Shown here: positions 2,859 to 32,492 of the stretch, piece by piece
Numbering within the stretch: the stretch's first letter is position 1
Layout: each line of letters begins with the position of its first letter
IMG/VR virus record: IMGVR_UViG_3300036828_000517
Span: 1 to 36,179 of that record
Length of the DNA stretch: 36,179 bases
Direction: 5' to 3' (one strand)
From: a virus
Notes under the pieces: generated by a model
Database searches by the model: none
Told to the model about the DNA's origin: nothing
Seen by the model: the letters and a program-made list of their open reading frames with translations, nothing else
Program-made: the position numbers and the translations under genes

Positions 2859-3340
2859 TGCCGATCACCCGCACCTATGCCTGCCCCGAGTGCAACCACA
2901 TGCTCGAGGTGGTGCTGTCGGCCGAACAGTGGGACGACCCGCCGCCGAGCTGCCCGAGGTGCGATGCGCGCGAGACGCAACAGGTGTTCAAGCCGCCGGC
3001 GATCGGCGGCTCAGCGCGATCTCGAGCTGTCTCGATCGCCGAGGAGATCGCAGCCAACGACTACAAGGTTGCCAACATCCACGCCGAAGGCCGGCCAGGC
3101 GGCACGCCCAAGGTCCGCTATAAGGACACAACGCCCGGCGTGGCCCCGAGCACGTGGACCGGGCCGAATGCTGCGGAATATCAGCTCGGCCAGAGCGCGC
3201 TGCAGACCGCAATCTCGCTCGGCCGCGAGACGCGGCTCAAGTATGGAAGCGGCCTCGATATCCTCAAGCACAACCTCGAAACCGGCGCCCAGCCTGATCT
3301 GATCGAGCAATCGAAGAAGAAATCGCCGAGGATCTGGTAA
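2858..3340 (+). CDS. zinc-ribbon protein (FmdB-like N-terminus)
   Basis: 160 residues. The first 40 contain two Cys-x-x-Cys knuckles (Cys9/Cys12 in CPEC and Cys32/Cys35 in CPRC) spaced like an FmdB-type regulatory zinc ribbon, followed by the QQVF segment often seen after the second knuckle. The remainder is polar, with no known domain. The ATG at 2858 is used because the preceding TTG belongs to the overlapping stop region of the KTSC gene (TGATG). It ends TAATG, overlapping the portal start by one base, so it is translationally coupled to the portal. A role in head assembly is suggested only by this context. Confidence 0.8.
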   Translation: MPITRTYACPECNHMLEVVLSAEQWDDPPPSCPRCDARETQQVFKPPAIGGSARSRAVSIAEEIAANDYKVANIHAEGRPGGTPKVRYKDTTPGVAPSTWTGPNAAEYQLGQSALQTAISLGRETRLKYGSGLDILKHNLETGAQPDLIEQSKKKSPRIW

Positions 3341-20599: not shown

Positions 20600-20906
20600 G
20601 TTACCTCCTGTCGGGTGGACGGCCTACTATCTCAGGTTTCGAGCCGCCTCTAACGGGGATGTGCTCCTAAGACCCCTCCGGGTGGTACGATGCTGGGGCG
20701 ATAATTTTTACGCCCGCAAGTGAGGTAGCAAAAATTGTCGTAGGTACCTCGGTATTGCGTGGGTCGGTGCCCTTGGACCGTCCTCTAGTCGACCCGTCCT
20801 CCTGCCAGCGGCAGAGCACCTTTCTGAAACCCGACGCCCACGCTCTCCGAGTCGGAATTTCCGGCAGGAGTACTTACGACCGCATGCGCCAGAGTAGTCA
20901 GTCATC
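20600..20906. other. 307-bp intergenic region with structured RNA element
   Basis: No open frame with a ribosome site is seen. The part next to the exonuclease stop (20757-20870) is the first copy of the two-copy RNA element. The part before the gene starting at 20599 is richer in A/T (TTTTTACGCCC and its neighbourhood near 20705-20718) and could hold a promoter for that gene, but no box pair meets the consensus well. The strong AGGAGGT at about 20605-20611 is the only clear translation signal. Confidence 0.6.
20757..20870 (-). ncRNA. structured RNA element, copy A
   Basis: Read on the minus strand. Stem P1 pairs 20863-20870 with 20799-20806 (8 bp, CTCCTGCC/GGCAGGAG). A second hairpin pairs 20791-20795 with 20761-20765 (GGGTC/GACCC). 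Its loop (20767-20772) is complementary to 20814-20819 inside P1, forming a loop-loop pseudoknot with one G-U pair. The core TCGGGTTTCAGAAAGGTGC is shared with copy B at 27509-27620, while P1 bases differ but still pair. G-U pairs occur only if the minus strand is transcribed. No known RNA class is recognised. Confidence 0.65.
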
Positions 20907-21659: not shown

Positions 21660-21850
21660 AGCAAATGTTCCTTTTCTGCTAGGGCCTGATACTCGTCGGC
21701 GATCTCTTGCATGATGTCGGCGCGCTTTTGCTGAATCGGCGTCATCCCGCGACCGGCAGGATAGTCTGGGCTCCACACGGCCTTGCGCATCTTGACCTCG
21801 CGCGCAGCCTCCATGGCCTTTTCCGCGTTGCTGAATCTAGGTGCGCGCAT
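21656..21850 (-). CDS. small hypothetical protein between erf and exo
   Basis: 64 residues, basic and helical (NAEKAMEAAREVKMRKAV; IQQKRADIMQEIADEYQALAEKE). It starts inside the end of the annealase gene (overlap 14 bases) and its stop overlaps the exonuclease start. This tight packing implies co-regulation with recombination, perhaps as a partner or modulator, but no family is recognised. Confidence 0.7.
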   Translation of the reverse strand: MRAPRFSNAEKAMEAAREVKMRKAVWSPDYPAGRGMTPIQQKRADIMQEIADEYQALAEKEHLL

Positions 21851-22604
21851 TGTCGGCCCTGTTCTTTTTGATCGTCAGGGTCCGCATGAAGCGGAAGAAG
21901 TCAGCGCTCTGCATTTCGGCGAGCTCGGTCACGCCGCAAAACTCGAGAATGCGCTGCTTGTCGGTGCGCGTCTCACTCAACAGCTTCTCGAGTTGCTTGA
22001 CCTGCTCGGCGTCGACTTTCTGCTCGCGCAGCGAGGTGGCGTCGTCGTCCTCGCCCTTGCGGACGATGTTGAGCAGCGCGGTCGCGGTGTAGCGCATGCC
22101 GTAGGTCTGAGCGCCGCCGACCGCCTGCAGGCTGTTGCGGCCTGGGCCGGCATCGGGCGGCAATGGCATCACCGAGCGCTTGGTGTGACCGCCGTAGGAG
22201 AGCTCGGCGACGACCAAGATTGCCACGCCCCCTTGCGCCGGCTCGGTGTGGAACCCGAGCGCAAACCCGTGTTTGACGAGTATCGGTCGGATGTGTTTGT
22301 CGATGTCGTCCCAGCGCGCAAAATCATAGCGGCCGAGCTCAACACCGGCCTTGGTGATCAGCTCGACGCGGCCGCGCTTTTCGATCTGCGGCATGTCGAG
22401 CATCATTTTGGAGTAGGCAAAGTTGAATGCCTCCTCGGCCTGCTCAGCGAGCACCTCCTTGCGCAAGCGGCCGATCACCTCGAGCTTGTCGGCCGGGATG
22501 TTGGGGTCGGCAAGCGCGTTCATCAGGAACTGTCCGAATGTCTGCGCCGGCGTCTGTGGGGTGATGATCTCGAGCGGCCCCATCTTCTCTGTCTCGTCAT
22601 TCAT
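21837..22604 (-). CDS. erf: ERF-family single-strand annealing protein
   Basis: 255 residues, in the normal Erf range. Erf proteins (first described in P22) form rings on single-stranded DNA and anneal complementary strands. The family block is at about residues 60-165: FNFAYSKMMLDMPQIEKRG, the basic YDFARWDDIDKHIRPILVKH segment, GFALGFHTE and the Gly-rich AVGGAQTYGMRYTATALLNI. The C-terminal 80 residues are charged, as in other Erf proteins where they form the oligomer tail. With the adjacent exonuclease it makes a complete phage recombination pair. Confidence 0.9.
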   Translation of the reverse strand: MNDETEKMGPLEIITPQTPAQTFGQFLMNALADPNIPADKLEVIGRLRKEVLAEQAEEAFNFAYSKMMLDMPQIEKRGRVELITKAGVELGRYDFARWDDIDKHIRPILVKHGFALGFHTEPAQGGVAILVVAELSYGGHTKRSVMPLPPDAGPGRNSLQAVGGAQTYGMRYTATALLNIVRKGEDDDATSLREQKVDAEQVKQLEKLLSETRTDKQRILEFCGVTELAEMQSADFFRFMRTLTIKKNRADNART

Positions 22605-24337: not shown

Positions 24338-24535
24338 ATGATGGCGCTCCGCGTGCTATGGCTCATGGCTTGTATCGCGGCGCACATTGTACGCGCGCAA
24401 TTTCCCATGCGTCCAATGACGCGCGTCTACCACCGGAGCCGTGGGCTTAGACGCTGGCGCGAGCTGCGAGCGATCTACCGCGCCCACGGCATAGATCTGC
24501 CAGTCCCAGGAGGGCGCCATGAAGATCGTTCTTAG
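24338..24535 (+). CDS. small basic protein with hydrophobic N-terminus
   Basis: 65 residues (63-64 if a second ATG is used). Residues 3-20 (ALRVLWLMACIAAHIVRA) are hydrophobic and could be a signal peptide or membrane anchor; the rest is Arg-rich. A GCAGGGGC lies before the ATG, and the gene overlaps the endolysin start by 17 bases. Position next to the amidase suggests a lysis accessory, possibly spanin- or holin-like, but the sequence does not prove it. The 144 bases before it carry no clear gene. Confidence 0.45.
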   Translation: MMALRVLWLMACIAAHIVRAQFPMRPMTRVYHRSRGLRRWRELRAIYRAHGIDLPVPGGRHEDRS

Positions 24536-25640
24536 TTCCGGCCACGGCCTGTATGTGCGAGGTGCCTCGGGGTATCTCGACGAAGTCAACGAGGCGCGCA
24601 AGGTCGTCGACCGGGTCGCCCAGCTCTGGCGCGAGAACGGCGTCGGCGTCGACACCTTCCACGACAACACCAGCACGAGCCAGAATCAGAACCTCTCGAC
24701 CATCGTGGCGTATCACAATTCCCGAACCAGGGACTACGACGTGAGCTGCCACTTCAACGCTTACAGTACTACCAGCAAGCCAATGGGTACTGAGGTATGG
24801 TACTACAGCCAGCAATCGCTGGCCTCAACCGTATCCAAGGGCATGGCTGTGGCCGGCGGGTTCATCAACCGCGGCCCCAAGCAATCGTCCAGTTTGTATT
24901 TTTTGAGTAACACGGCCATGCCGAGCATCTTGCTCGAGGTGTGCTTCGTGGACAGCTCCGCCGACGCCGACCTGTACCGGCGTAACTTCGAGGCCATCTG
25001 CAAGAGCCTGGCCGAGACGATCGGCAAGATCACGATCGGCGCGCCGCCGACCGAGCCGCCCGTCGAGCCACCTGTGGAGCCGGAAGAGCCGCCACCCGAC
25101 GAGGTCACCGCTACGGTTGACATGACGATAACGGCCACCGGGCCGGTGCGCATCACCATCAACGGCCAGGACGTCTCGGTTAATGCGCCAGGCCCAGAGG
25201 AGCCGGCCACGCCGGTGTTCCAGGCCAATCACCAGAACATCATCTGCAGCGTGTTTGGCGGCAACGCGGATCCAAACGATTCGGCCTATCCGCCATACGA
25301 CAAGATCACGGACTCGGAGCTCGGGTGTGCGTTGCCGTGGAAGTTTGCCGGCACGCGCCCGAGTGTGCTGGTGCACAACATCGCCACAGGCAAGGACGTC
25401 GTCTGTGCGATTCGTGACGTTGGACCTTGGGTCATCGACGACGAGGCGTATGTGCTCGGCAACGAGGTGCGGCCGGTGGCCGAACCCAAGGGCAGCAAGA
25501 TCCCGCGCGGCAAGCATAAGGGCAAAACCAGCAACGGCGCGGGATTGGATTTAACCCCGGCCGCGGCCAAGGCGATCGGGCTCAGCGGGATGGGGAATGT
25601 GCACTGGCGCTTTGTCGACGAGAACGACCCGAGCGTTTGA
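24519..25640 (+). CDS. two-domain endolysin: N-acetylmuramoyl-L-alanine amidase plus double-psi beta-barrel-like domain
   Basis: 373 residues, GGAGGGC before the ATG. The N-terminal ~175 residues are an Amidase_3-type zinc amidase cutting the amide bond between MurNAc and L-Ala in peptidoglycan: His9 in SSGHG, Glu22 in DEVNEA, His78 in CHFNA and Glu140 in LLEVCFVD are the expected metal and catalytic residues. A Pro/Glu-rich linker (about 176-195) and a beta-rich segment lead to a C-terminal domain (about 240-373) with SVLVHNIATGKDVVCAIRDVG, an Asp-x-Gly-Pro motif and GLDLTPAAAKAIG, like RlpA/expansin double-psi barrels. No signal peptide is seen, so release would need a holin. The tail may bind or cut a second wall site. 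Confidence 0.9.
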   Translation: MKIVLSSGHGLYVRGASGYLDEVNEARKVVDRVAQLWRENGVGVDTFHDNTSTSQNQNLSTIVAYHNSRTRDYDVSCHFNAYSTTSKPMGTEVWYYSQQSLASTVSKGMAVAGGFINRGPKQSSSLYFLSNTAMPSILLEVCFVDSSADADLYRRNFEAICKSLAETIGKITIGAPPTEPPVEPPVEPEEPPPDEVTATVDMTITATGPVRITINGQDVSVNAPGPEEPATPVFQANHQNIICSVFGGNADPNDSAYPPYDKITDSELGCALPWKFAGTRPSVLVHNIATGKDVVCAIRDVGPWVIDDEAYVLGNEVRPVAEPKGSKIPRGKHKGKTSNGAGLDLTPAAAKAIGLSGMGNVHWRFVDENDPSV

Positions 25641-27012: not shown

Positions 27013-27484
27013 CAAACCTCATGTAGATCGCCGCTTCGGGAGCAACAATATATTTCTCTTCCGGGTTACCGGTGTTAGCCGGGGTGAACCATTTCGAGAT
27101 CCATGGCGCAGTCGTCTCGCGCCAGATCCAAGCCATATGTGTCTTGTTCTCGTTGAGGATGATCACGCGATCAATGTTGTCGATGCCGATCTTGTCGGCC
27201 GCGGCGACGTTCTTGAGCTTAACCCAGTCCTTGTATTCGGCCGCGCATGTCCAGTCGCCCAGGTACCTGTAGTGATGCACCTCAACGCGCTTCCAGCGGT
27301 CATCCTCACGCAGGAACAAGTCGCCGTGGTCGGCGTACTGTTCATGCTCGGCCGCGGTCGGAGCTTGCTTGAAGCCGGGGATAGAAACGCTGAAGCCGCG
27401 CCTGTGAAACCACGCGGCGACAGCAAAAAGGGCCGGCACAGAATCGTTGTGCCGCCCCTTGAACGCATCGTGTTGAGCACTCAT
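26936..27484 (-). CDS. possible nuclease-fold protein
   Basis: 182 residues starting at 27484. The middle has a PD-(D/E)xK-like arrangement: SVPALFAVAAWFHRRGFSVS (helix before the core), HEQYADHGDLFLRED (the Asp in DHGDLF) and RVEVHHYRY, where Glu-x-His replaces the usual Glu-x-Lys. Next come YKDWVKLKNVAA and IDNIDRVIILNENKTHMAW, as in the beta strand and Q/E helix of such folds. The lysine change could mean loss of activity or a variant. Structured RNA copy B ends about 25 bases upstream, in its 5' leader. The C-terminus is acidic. Confidence 0.55.
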   Translation of the reverse strand: MSAQHDAFKGRHNDSVPALFAVAAWFHRRGFSVSIPGFKQAPTAAEHEQYADHGDLFLREDDRWKRVEVHHYRYLGDWTCAAEYKDWVKLKNVAAADKIGIDNIDRVIILNENKTHMAWIWRETTAPWISKWFTPANTGNPEEKYIVAPEAAIYMRFDDETVQAPRPPEAAVEPEADDGDIF

Positions 27485-27508
27485 ACGCCACCAAACAAAC
27501 AGAGATGC

Positions 27509-27620
27509 GTGAGTTAGTGCCCTTGAACCGCAAATGACCCACACCTCTTGCTGCGACGGCAGGGCACCTTTCTGAAACCCGATGCTCACGCTCACCGAGC
27601 AGGAATTCCGCAGCAAGAGG
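27509..27620 (-). ncRNA. structured RNA element, copy B
   Basis: Read on the minus strand. Stem P1 is a perfect 12-bp helix (27609-27620 with 27544-27555, CCTCTTGCTGCG/CGCAGCAAGAGG). A second hairpin pairs 27537-27542 with 27509-27514 (one G-U). Its loop (27517-27523, GTGCCCT on the plus strand) is the perfect complement of 27561-27567, giving a 7-bp pseudoknot. An inner hairpin TGCTC...GAGCA sits at the top of P1. Core shared with copy A; stem bases differ in a compensated way. It ends in the leader of the gene at 27484 and begins just after the stop of the gene at 27625-27879. Confidence 0.7.
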
Positions 27621-27624
27621 AACC

Positions 27625-27879
27625 TTACTCGCCTCGCGGCGCGGCTAGCTTGGCAATGGCCGCGTCGCGCTCCGCTGTATATTCGTCAGAGATCGCACGC
27701 AGCCGCTCGATTGCTCTGTCTAAGCGGTTATATTTGAAATCGAGCAGTGCGAGCTCGATCGTCATCGATAGTCGGCCATTCCACGTGGCCAGCTCACGGA
27801 TCATCTCGTTTGCGTGGTCGCTGGCGCGGACGCGCGCCTTGTGGATTGCGAGATCCTCTTCGTAGAATAGATCACTCAT
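27625..27879 (-). CDS. small helical hypothetical protein
   Basis: 84 residues, almost entirely helical with alternating charges (HKARVRASDHANEMIRELAT; LDRAIERLRAISDEYTAERD). A coiled-coil or helical hairpin is likely. AGGAGAGCG precedes the ATG. The stop lies just before the P1 helix of RNA copy B. Function unknown. Confidence 0.65.
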   Translation of the reverse strand: MSDLFYEEDLAIHKARVRASDHANEMIRELATWNGRLSMTIELALLDFKYNRLDRAIERLRAISDEYTAERDAAIAKLAAPRGE

Positions 27880-27892
27880 GGTAGCGCTCTCC

Positions 27893-28135
27893 TCAGTCTT
27901 TCAACAATTGTTCGAATGTCTCGAGCACGAGTCTCGAGGCCGCTTTCACCTCATCAACACTGGCGTTGAGATTGCCGCGACGCTTGTCCGTCTCCTTCCC
28001 CTTGCTGATACAGGCAACAACCATGACCTTGGCCAGGATTGGCACCATGTCGACCGGCATGAGATCCTGGCTCTGGCACCAGGCTATCAGCGCGTCGCAG
28101 GCCCTGATCTGTTCCTCGTCGGTCACAGCGGCCAC
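27893..28135 (-). CDS. small hypothetical protein
   Basis: 80 residues from GTG at 28135, overlapping the end of the upstream gene by 13 bases. Helical, with two cysteines (CDALIAWCQSQDL) and a basic linker (KGKETDKRRGN). No family recognised. The GTG start is the only one with the right overlap arrangement; an internal start is possible. Confidence 0.6.
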   Translation of the reverse strand: MAAVTDEEQIRACDALIAWCQSQDLMPVDMVPILAKVMVVACISKGKETDKRRGNLNASVDEVKAASRLVLETFEQLLKD

Positions 28136-30518: not shown

Positions 30519-30651
30519 TTCCTACCCTCTTCCTACCCCCTTCCAACCACTTCCTACCCCTCAATTCCTACCCCCCCGTTTCCTACCCCCCCTAAAGGGG
30601 AGGGGGTAGGAACCGGGATGGGTGAGGTAGGAATTGGCTGGAAGGTAGGAC
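30519..30651. repeat. iteron-like TTCCTACCC array
   Basis: Five perfect TTCCTACCC copies start at 30519, 30530, 30551, 30565 and 30580, with a degenerate TTCCAACCA at 30541; spacing is 10-15 bases, close to a helical turn. One perfect copy lies inverted at 30604-30612, and two weaker inverted ones near 30626 and 30644. Such same-face arrays are bound by replication initiators or by repressors. They lie immediately downstream of the minus-strand Toprim/ATPase gene. Confidence 0.7.
30580..30612. terminator. strong hairpin inside the iteron array
   Basis: An 11-bp perfect stem (TTCCTACCCCC at 30580-30590 with GGGGGTAGGAA at 30602-30612) around an 11-base loop that can itself pair CCCC with GGGG. 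It lies about 48 bases beyond the stop of the minus-strand ATPase gene and could stop its transcript, although no U-run follows directly. Equally it may be only the inverted iteron arrangement of an origin. Confidence 0.35.
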
Positions 30652-30659
30652 GCGGTCGT

Positions 30660-32492
30660 TCACACCAGGACGAGGTATCTGCGGCGTTTAGATACCGGTC
30701 CCCACTCGTCGATCCGTATCCGGTTACTACGGAACAGACGTTCCATGGCTTGGGCGAGGTCGCGCATGGAGAGTTTGGCTTGGCGCGCTTCGGGTTCGTC
30801 GCAGAACACCCGTGGGGCGTAGTTTTTGCGGCCGGCGGGGTTGTCGGCGACCCAGCGCGACTGCTCGTTGCGCCGGCGCAACACGGTGAGGAACACCTCG
30901 TCGGCCTGGCTGGCGCGGGCGAGCTGGTCGAGCGAGCTGCCGGATCCCTCGGGCAGGAACAGGCCGTCCTTGAAGCGCAGCGTGATGGCGGGCGCTTGTG
31001 GGCCATACTGGTTCTTGCGGAACTCGAGGCTGCGCAGATCGGTGTCGGGTTCGTCGCCGTTGTCGGGTTCGACGCCCTTGAGGTACCAGCGCGCGCGCAC
31101 GGCGTTATGCCAGGCGGTCGACCCGGAGATGCCGGTATTGCTCTTGATGCCTTCGAGGCTGGGGTGGCCGATCAGCAGCACGGCGCCGTTGGCGACGATG
31201 GCGATCTTGCGCAGCAGGGCGATGAACTGCTGCACCTGGGCGCGGTCGTTTTCGATGCCGCCGTAGACGTTGGAGAGGCTGGCAATGGCGATCAGCTTTG
31301 GCCGCAGTTCGGCGGCCGCGGCCAGCAGCTGCGCATAGAACGGCGTCGGCCGCAGCAGCCCGGACCGGTCGGCGGTGGCGAGCAGGCTGTCCTGGCCGGC
31401 CAGGCTCATCAGCCGCAAGCCGCCGGCGTAGAGCTCGGCAAAGGTCGTCGCGTAGTAGCGCACGACCGCCTCCAGCCGCCGGTGCAGCACATCGGGCCCG
31501 TCCTCGCAGTCGATCAACCAGGCCGGCCCCGGTTCCGGCAGCGCTTGCAGCCAGTCGCGGCCGAGCGCGTGCGCGGCGCACAGGTGCAAGGCGATGGTGC
31601 TCTTGCCGGCGGACCCGTGGCCGCTGAACAGCGCCACTTGCTGATTCGGGATGCGGTCGCGGATCGCCCATTCCTGCGCCGGCGCCGGCACCCCGTCGAC
31701 GAACGGCGGCAGCCAGGGCAGTTGCACCGGTTGCGGCGCGTCCCCGGCTGGCCGCCCCAACTTGCCGACCAGCTCCAGCAGCTCCTCGCGCGTGCCGCCG
31801 GCGTCGATCCAGTCCGACACGTCGCCCTTCTCGCGCAGGCCGGGCAGCACCAGGATCAGCACCGAGCGGGCGATCGGCAGAAGCTGCGCCGCCACCTGGT
31901 CGGCGTGCTTCCTCCCAGGCTCATCGTTGTCGGGCAGGATCACCACCGCCCGCTCGCGGAACCAGCCGTTGAGCTCGGGCTTCCACTTGCCGGCGCCGCC
32001 GGCGTTGCAGGTGGCAACAAGGCCGAGCCGGCGCAGGTTGTCGACGTCCTTCTCGCCCTCGGGGATGAATATCGGGACATCGTCGGCATCCGAGGCGACG
32101 AGCTCGGGGAGCCGATAGGGGACATCGGGAACGCCCTTGGTGTCGTACACCCAGGCGCCGTTGCCGCCGGGATCCGGTCGCCGTTGCACGAACTTGTGCC
32201 CCGGCCGCCGCACCACCTGGCGCAGCAGGTGATGCTCGGCGTCCTCGTATGGGTACGCGATCTCCAACGGGGTCGAGCCGTTGCCCTGCTCGGGCGCCAG
32301 GCCGGCGCGCTTGAGCAGGTCGAGCACCCCACCGCCGGCGAGCTCCTGGTGGTCGTAGTAGGTGAGCTTGACGAGGTCGATCGACTTCGATCCGTGTTGG
32401 CCGAATCGCCACTCGGTTTTCGTTTTGTTCGTTGCTTCCCCCCACAGCGCTTGTGCCGCCCGAATCAGATCGCCGCTGTTCGGCTCGAACAT
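30660..32492 (-). CDS. Toprim-RecA-like ATPase replication protein (primase-helicase type)
   Basis: 610 residues from ATG 32492, with AGAGGGG upstream. Order: N-terminal region (residues 25-62, TEWRFGQHGSKSIDL...DHQELAGGGVLDLL) typical of phage/plasmid Toprim proteins but without zinc cysteines; a Toprim domain with IPEGEKD (Glu145) and LPDNDEPG (Asp188/Asp190); a RepA/RecA-like ATPase with Walker A GHGSAGKST at 291-299 and IDCEDG at 328-332; a basic C-terminus. The Walker B position (residues 400-410, LIAIASLSNVYGG) has Ala404 where relatives usually have Asp. It probably unwinds or starts DNA at the adjacent origin candidate. No separate primase fold is visible. Confidence 0.85.
   Translation of the reverse strand: MFEPNSGDLIRAAQALWGEATNKTKTEWRFGQHGSKSIDLVKLTYYDHQELAGGGVLDLLKRAGLAPEQGNGSTPLEIAYPYEDAEHHLLRQVVRRPGHKFVQRRPDPGGNGAWVYDTKGVPDVPYRLPELVASDADDVPIFIPEGEKDVDNLRRLGLVATCNAGGAGKWKPELNGWFRERAVVILPDNDEPGRKHADQVAAQLLPIARSVLILVLPGLREKGDVSDWIDAGGTREELLELVGKLGRPAGDAPQPVQLPWLPPFVDGVPAPAQEWAIRDRIPNQQVALFSGHGSAGKSTIALHLCAAHALGRDWLQALPEPGPAWLIDCEDGPDVLHRRLEAVVRYYATTFAELYAGGLRLMSLAGQDSLLATADRSGLLRPTPFYAQLLAAAAELRPKLIAIASLSNVYGGIENDRAQVQQFIALLRKIAIVANGAVLLIGHPSLEGIKSNTGISGSTAWHNAVRARWYLKGVEPDNGDEPDTDLRSLEFRKNQYGPQAPAITLRFKDGLFLPEGSGSSLDQLARASQADEVFLTVLRRRNEQSRWVADNPAGRKNYAPRVFCDEPEARQAKLSMRDLAQAMERLFRSNRIRIDEWGPVSKRRRYLVLV

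Follow-up and report, generated by a model that had tools for sequence, protein, structure and literature searches.

Structured RNA classes whose fold is backed by independent compensatory changes are, to our knowledge, rare, and very few of them are known in phages. The HDV-like ribozymes, which cleave themselves just 5′ of P1, are nested double pseudoknots in which P3 and P4 are closed hairpins; they further possess P1.1 and, in J4/2, a catalytic C. Phage theta ribozymes are counted among these HDV-like self-cleaving RNAs (PMC10879173). Self-cleaving ribozymes are moreover over-represented close to Mu-like phage genes and to one another, for reasons that are unknown, and hammerhead, twister, pistol and hatchet ribozymes of phage regions have been described (PMC10085705). 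A phage RNA of another kind is put of HK022, which is pure RNA, occurs twice per phage in early operons, measures about 70 nt and consists of two stem-loops near the early promoters; the paper mentions no pseudoknot (PMC9378689). Finally, comparative genomics of bacteria and metagenomes has provided orphan structured RNAs, i.e. conserved, covarying intergenic RNAs with no assigned function (PMC2864571).

The element described here, of about 112 nt, appears to define a new class of structured RNA carried by phages, given that it falls into no catalogued family and that its fold is unlike those compared; the newness concerns the RNA class, as set apart by Rfam and the described folds, and the mechanism stays putative. 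With the HDV-like ribozymes it shares a small size, a compact nested double pseudoknot in which P1 and P2 cross, and varied phage locations (PMC10879173), but its P3 and P4 pair across P1, which itself is variable, having 9-13 bp or consisting of two short stems. The closed hairpins P3 and P4 inside the HDV-like P1/P2 knot are absent; the strands from P2 5′ to P1 3′ pair here with the region behind P1. Like hammerhead, twister, pistol and hatchet it is a small conserved RNA scattered across unrelated phage contexts, but it matches none of their covariance models. The orphan RNAs resemble it in being conserved, covarying and intergenic; the difference is that no catalogued family matches and that our element comes from viral contigs only. 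The absence of a known class, already suspected in the first-pass annotation, was borne out by Rfam 15: the whole window gave, at E≤1, only spurious microRNA matches elsewhere, and the elements A, B, L034 and L028 gave, at E≤10, nothing above the gathering score. The best sub-threshold match was SorX, with 24.5 bits where 46.6 are needed, in an L028 stretch that includes a terminator hairpin. No description of such an element was found in the open-access literature searched.

By the window we mean the whole stretch analysed, an IMG/VR record of 36,179 bases from a tailed phage. Its plus strand has matches to terminase, tail fibre and an SU10-like portal, and its minus strand holds a replication/recombination region. 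The features of this region that matter here are:

20757-20870, minus strand: RNA copy A, whole element, 114 nt, cmsearch 99.9 bits; its orthologue lies at 8834-8950 of L001
27507-27620, minus strand: RNA copy B, whole element, 114 nt, cmsearch 108.2 bits
20907-21776, minus strand: match to a YqaJ/RecE-type exonuclease
21837-22604, minus strand: match to Erf
30660-32492, minus strand: match to an AAA_25 helicase

The core shared by the two copies, TCGGGTTTCAGAAAGGTGC, has exactly two matches in the window, at 20816-20834 and 27564-27582 of the minus strand, against 0.01 expected by chance with up to three mismatches allowed; a filter-free search with a covariance model found no third copy in the window. 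Both copies are intergenic, run in the same direction as the minus-strand genes and can be aligned over 114 nt with 74% identity. The first-pass annotation had thus been right to see two copies of one RNA, with correct coordinates for A; for B it had placed the end at 27509 instead of 27507. Two other features of the window may be mentioned: an Amidase_3 lysis-type gene on the plus strand (24519-25640) breaks into the minus-strand early region, and a strong inverted repeat lies near the helicase gene (30560-30638), where unrelated microRNA models match both strands.

Scanning 2.9 million IMG/VR contigs with the core and with looser patterns revealed the element in 12 further viral records: L001, L002, L028, L029 and the eight records of the L034 group (L032, L033, L034, L036, L038, L039, L040 and L041). 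L002 is the same phage as that of the window (identical over 8,789 bases) and repeats B exactly. L001 is a sister phage, carrying the A orthologue behind the same exonuclease gene, and L028, L029 and the L034 group supply three further contexts, so that the short, self-contained sequence recurs in five unrelated genomic settings. The nine distinct sequences, 60-99% identical among themselves, were used to build a covariance model, with which they score 97-126 bits; nothing else in 412 kb exceeds 13.6. No element was found in INPHARED (GenBank) phages or PLSDB plasmids, nor with the model in ten phage records searched whole (best up to 13 bits); the RNA is absent, according to model searches, from MW202753 and MW202825, which are the window phage's closest relatives in GenBank, from three Queuovirinae-like phages and from five phages with a shared G004 gene. 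Several leads were discarded: the pattern matches L003-L013, L030, L031, L035, L037, L042 and L060 lack the stems and are chance; weak cmsearch matches in a Bacillota-type genome (24-26 bits) and in phages (≤13 bits) are other structures or chance; and among plasmid blastn leads (E 0.7-8) the best-covering one has no cmsearch match. The element has so far been seen only in viral contigs, bacterial genomes having been covered by one narrow pattern, and the location of L028 near VPLPA-/PEP-CTERM-type genes hints at bacterial or prophage copies.

Some of the carriers deserve a word in their own right. For L044 (G003) and L028, a phage-like contig with TerL also holds genes for VPLPA-/PEP-CTERM-type secreted proteins, and the RNA stands directly behind one of them. 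The L045 (G004) phage, with the RNA at 2933-3042, has genes for a TET-associated glycosyltransferase and for proteins resembling Pam3 gp33/gp34, along with a 5-hmdU DNA kinase domain. The L034-group phages (L046-L049 and L050-L051; G012 and G007) look Queuovirinae-like, with a primase 36% identical to that of PaMx25, and by eye contain QueE/QueD/FolE-like 7-deazaguanine genes. A link of the RNA to 7-deazaguanine biosynthesis, considered because of such genes in the L034/L041 phages, was dropped: none was recognised among the window proteins searched.

From 5′ to 3′ the fold reads P1, P5, P2, P5′, the joining strand TTTCAGAAA, P3, P4, P1′, a variable loop, P4′, a bulge NCA, P3′, (A/G)A and P2′. 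It is a double pseudoknot, since P1 crosses P2-P3-P4 and P5 crosses P2. The helices of the two copies are as follows, with the 5′ strand given first:

20861-20870 and 20799-20808, minus strand: P1 of copy A, CTCCTGCCGG with CTGGCAGGAG, a 10-bp helix
20848-20851 and 20830-20833, minus strand: P5 of copy A, CTCG with CGGG, showing CG/AU/UA covariation
20837-20843 and 20757-20763, minus strand: P2 of copy A, GCGTGGG with CCCACGC, two-sided change in three of seven pairs, 100% paired
20821-20829, minus strand: joining strand J5/3 of copy A, TTTCAGAAA, invariant in 9/9 distinct sequences
20813-20820 and 20766-20773, minus strand: P3 of copy A (the pseudoknot of the first-pass annotation), GGTGCTCT with AGGGCACC, 97% of cells paired
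20809-20812 and 20777-20780, minus strand: P4 of copy A, GCCG with CGGT; a C-G to G-C switch in the L034 group
27609-27620 and 27544-27555, minus strand: P1 of copy B, CCTCTTGCTGCG with CGCAGCAAGAGG, a 12-13 bp helix
27596-27599 and 27578-27581, minus strand: P5 of copy B, CTCG with CGGG
27585-27591 and 27507-27513, minus strand: P2 of copy B, GCGTGAG with CTCACGC
27569-27577, minus strand: joining strand of copy B, TTTCAGAAA, invariant in 9/9 distinct sequences
27561-27568 and 27516-27523, minus strand: P3 of copy B, GGTGCCCT with AGGGCACT
27557-27560 and 27527-27530, minus strand: P4 of copy B, GCCG with CGGT

All five helices are retained through compensatory change among the nine distinct sequences. 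P2, 100% paired with changes on both sides, is GCGTGGG/CCCACGC in A, GCGTGAG/CTCACGC in B, GCGTTGG/CCAGCGC in L028 and GCGGGAG/CTCCCGC in the L034 group. P4 is GCCG/CGGU, replaced by GCGG/CCGU in the L034 group, and P5, of the form NYCG/CGRN, is again 100% paired, one of its pairs occurring as C-G, A-U and U-A. Every sequence allows a P1 to be drawn, with differing letters, the two short stems being those of the L034 group. P3 has two C.A mismatches (in L001 and L028), which weaken it locally. As to the plan of helices first proposed from A and B, P1 with its different letters and the loop-loop pseudoknot, our P3, are present in both copies, but hairpin 2 (GGGTC/GACCC in A, GTGGGT/ACTCAC in B), although drawable there, has no counterpart in the homologues and competes with P2; P4 and P5 had been missed.

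Several tests at the level of helices agree with this fold. Pairing in P2-P4 amounts to 98.8% of cells, as against 89% in shuffles and 36-44% when the strands are slid, and RNAalifold, to which the structure was not supplied, returned the same P2, P3 and P4. Of the 3,905 stacks of 4 bp that can be formed, the ones that reach 97% pairing or more and show two-sided change all belong to the proposed helices or to a one-pair extension of P5. A tree-aware null, in which the same 27 substitutions are replayed on random paired columns of P2-P5, gave 52.7 ± 9.6 broken cells (minimum 23 in 1000 runs), while only 2 are observed; two-sided changes are found at 7 pairs, for 1.2 expected. Single pairs stay below significance because there are only about six lineages: an R-scape-like single-pair test, powerless with nine sequences, has a best E of about 2.6, and the case therefore rests on the helix-level tests. 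Folding energy is of no help as evidence, with z-scores of -0.3 and -1.9 for the minus-strand copies A and B, which means that the element is not discoverable by single-sequence folding alone. A hairpin CTC-GGN-GAG suggested by energy folding of B and L029 was rejected in favour of P5, as it is broken in the L034 group (ATC-GGT-GAG).

The strand follows from the wobble pairs, as the first-pass annotation had argued: P2-P5 contain, over the nine sequences, 22 G-U cells versus 2 A-C cells, so the RNA is on the same strand as the neighbouring genes. That annotation had proposed a structured pseudoknot RNA with compensatory changes, and had named a lack of homologues, or homologues with broken stems, as the outcome that would speak against it; instead, 12 further records were found, with covarying stems that are kept. 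A structure preserved by compensatory change, with its fold on one strand, supports the existence of a conserved structured RNA family. For A, conservation goes beyond the flanking genes: the 205 nt counted from the start of the RNA show 92% identity between the window and L001, compared with 65-78% for the aligned gene stretches.

Where the element is placed says something about what carries it. It is co-directional with its neighbour genes, and P1 begins 1 nt after the upstream stop codon in L029, 2 nt in L028, 2-3 nt in the L034 group, 4 nt in B and 6 nt in L001 (36 nt in A). A distance of 1-6 nt leaves no promoter space outside the upstream ORF, although such adjacency to a stop codon is partly expected for any RNA in a compact phage genome. 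This placement argues for an element embedded in mRNA rather than for an independent gene. No gene is fixed on either side, and the neighbours have nothing in common across contexts. B's downstream gene has its L001 orthologue directly behind a membrane-protein gene, with overlapping start and stop and without the RNA; thus the movement or loss of the element does not depend on that gene. Compared with L001, the window has at 27493-28135 two extra small genes (27893-28135 and 27625-27879) together with RNA B, ahead of the gene starting at 27484, either inserted in the window or lost in L001. Translational roles were considered and set aside. There is no slippery heptamer near the 5′ end, as a read-through or frameshift pseudoknot might lead one to look for, and further stops inside the element close the upstream frame in L029 and the L034 group; nor does any consistent frame run across the element, the open frames differing between members. 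For the defence decoy that had been put forward as one option, no PADLOC neighbour was found apart from a marginal methyltransferase match.

As for function, the reading we tentatively prefer, while giving it somewhat less than an even chance, is that of a cis-acting intercistronic element of a new class, which processes, cleaves or protects phage mRNA. The RNA would be part of a polycistronic phage mRNA and not an independent gene. P2, P3 and P4 form a long helical tower knotted twice, in that the loop of P1 contains the 5′ strand of the tower and the short P5 straddles P2, and the invariant unpaired TTTCAGAAA and the conserved joining nucleotides lie within the knot. Directly behind the upstream stop codon, this knot could act in cis on its own mRNA, as a device for processing or protection: it may cleave itself, be cut at its edge by an RNase, or halt exonucleases, and upstream and downstream messages would thereby get separate fates. 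Transcription, action in cis and the choice among cleavage, processing and protection are what we infer. That the element recurs in five unrelated settings, among them phages that differ in their DNA hypermodification systems, suggests a general job rather than service to one gene.

A general action on the carrier mRNA fits best. Almost as good is the fit of a released, trans-acting RNA, and one cut from the mRNA would look no different from a cis element. Host RNases would then liberate the element, which would bind a host or phage protein as a sponge, inhibitor or decoy. We regard this as unlikely, if a serious candidate: the element is bound to neither neighbour gene, has two copies per phage and an invariant single-stranded core, and in L028 sits between a gene and a terminator, the next gene being convergent, as a 3′-UTR RNA would; but no own promoter is visible in the window region, and there is no candidate partner.

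A more specific form of the cis-acting explanation, which we hold to be doubtful, is a self-cleaving ribozyme of a new class, whose invariant joining strands would form the active site and which would cut the mRNA between cistrons. The compact, multi-knotted fold with many invariant unpaired nucleotides would suit it, and so would the sporadic occurrence in unrelated phage contexts, with two copies in one genome and no fixed neighbour gene, much as known self-cleaving ribozymes cluster around Mu-like phage genes and around each other (PMC10085705). However, no cleavage site can be pointed to, no known Rfam ribozyme family matches, and protein-binding or ligand-binding RNAs fit the same features. 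That unrelated phages should use a new natural class of double-pseudoknot self-cleaving ribozymes, cutting polycistronic mRNA right behind a stop codon, is a rather doubtful proposal.

A riboswitch or protein-responsive leader controlling the downstream gene is improbable. The last P2 pair does lie 22-28 nt before a start codon in three of the five contexts (B, L029 and the L034 group), but in A the distance to the next start is 157 nt, and in L028 an intrinsic terminator follows 2 nt after P2, then a convergent gene. The downstream genes are unrelated, the neighbours differ per context, with no constant place before one functional gene set and no shared expression platform seen, the L001 orthologue of the gene behind B does without the RNA, and by eye no common alternative pairing with a Shine-Dalgarno sequence exists. 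Since no gene is constant upstream or downstream and nothing stands behind the element in L028, control of one downstream gene is unlikely, and for the same reasons so is antitermination. An antiterminator RNA of the HK022 put or EAR kind, riding on RNA polymerase, would be a very improbable reading: putL and putR are likewise a cis-acting structured RNA present twice in phage operons, with no protein of its own (PMC9378689), but instead of about 70 nt with two stem-loops near early promoters we have 112 nt and a double pseudoknot, located deep inside operons or near their end. A DNA-level element (a recombination site or repeat) or a recently duplicated functionless DNA, for which the different contexts of the copies and the gain or loss of B with two genes might speak, is hardly credible in view of the strand-specific G-U bias and of a divergence that preserves pairs down to 60% identity with flanks not shared.

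The surroundings of the two copies contain other potential RNA structures. The gene behind B has, within its start, a terminator-like hairpin with a T run (27434-27454, minus strand), such sites being not above chance in the region. Just behind A (20696-20750, minus strand), two short hairpins, GAGGT..ACCTC and GGGCG..CGCCC, have complementary AT-rich loops. In L001 the loops, ATAATTTTT and AAAAATTAT, are perfectly complementary. The stretch is as conserved as RNA A, and the pair of hairpins is a possible kissing-loop element.
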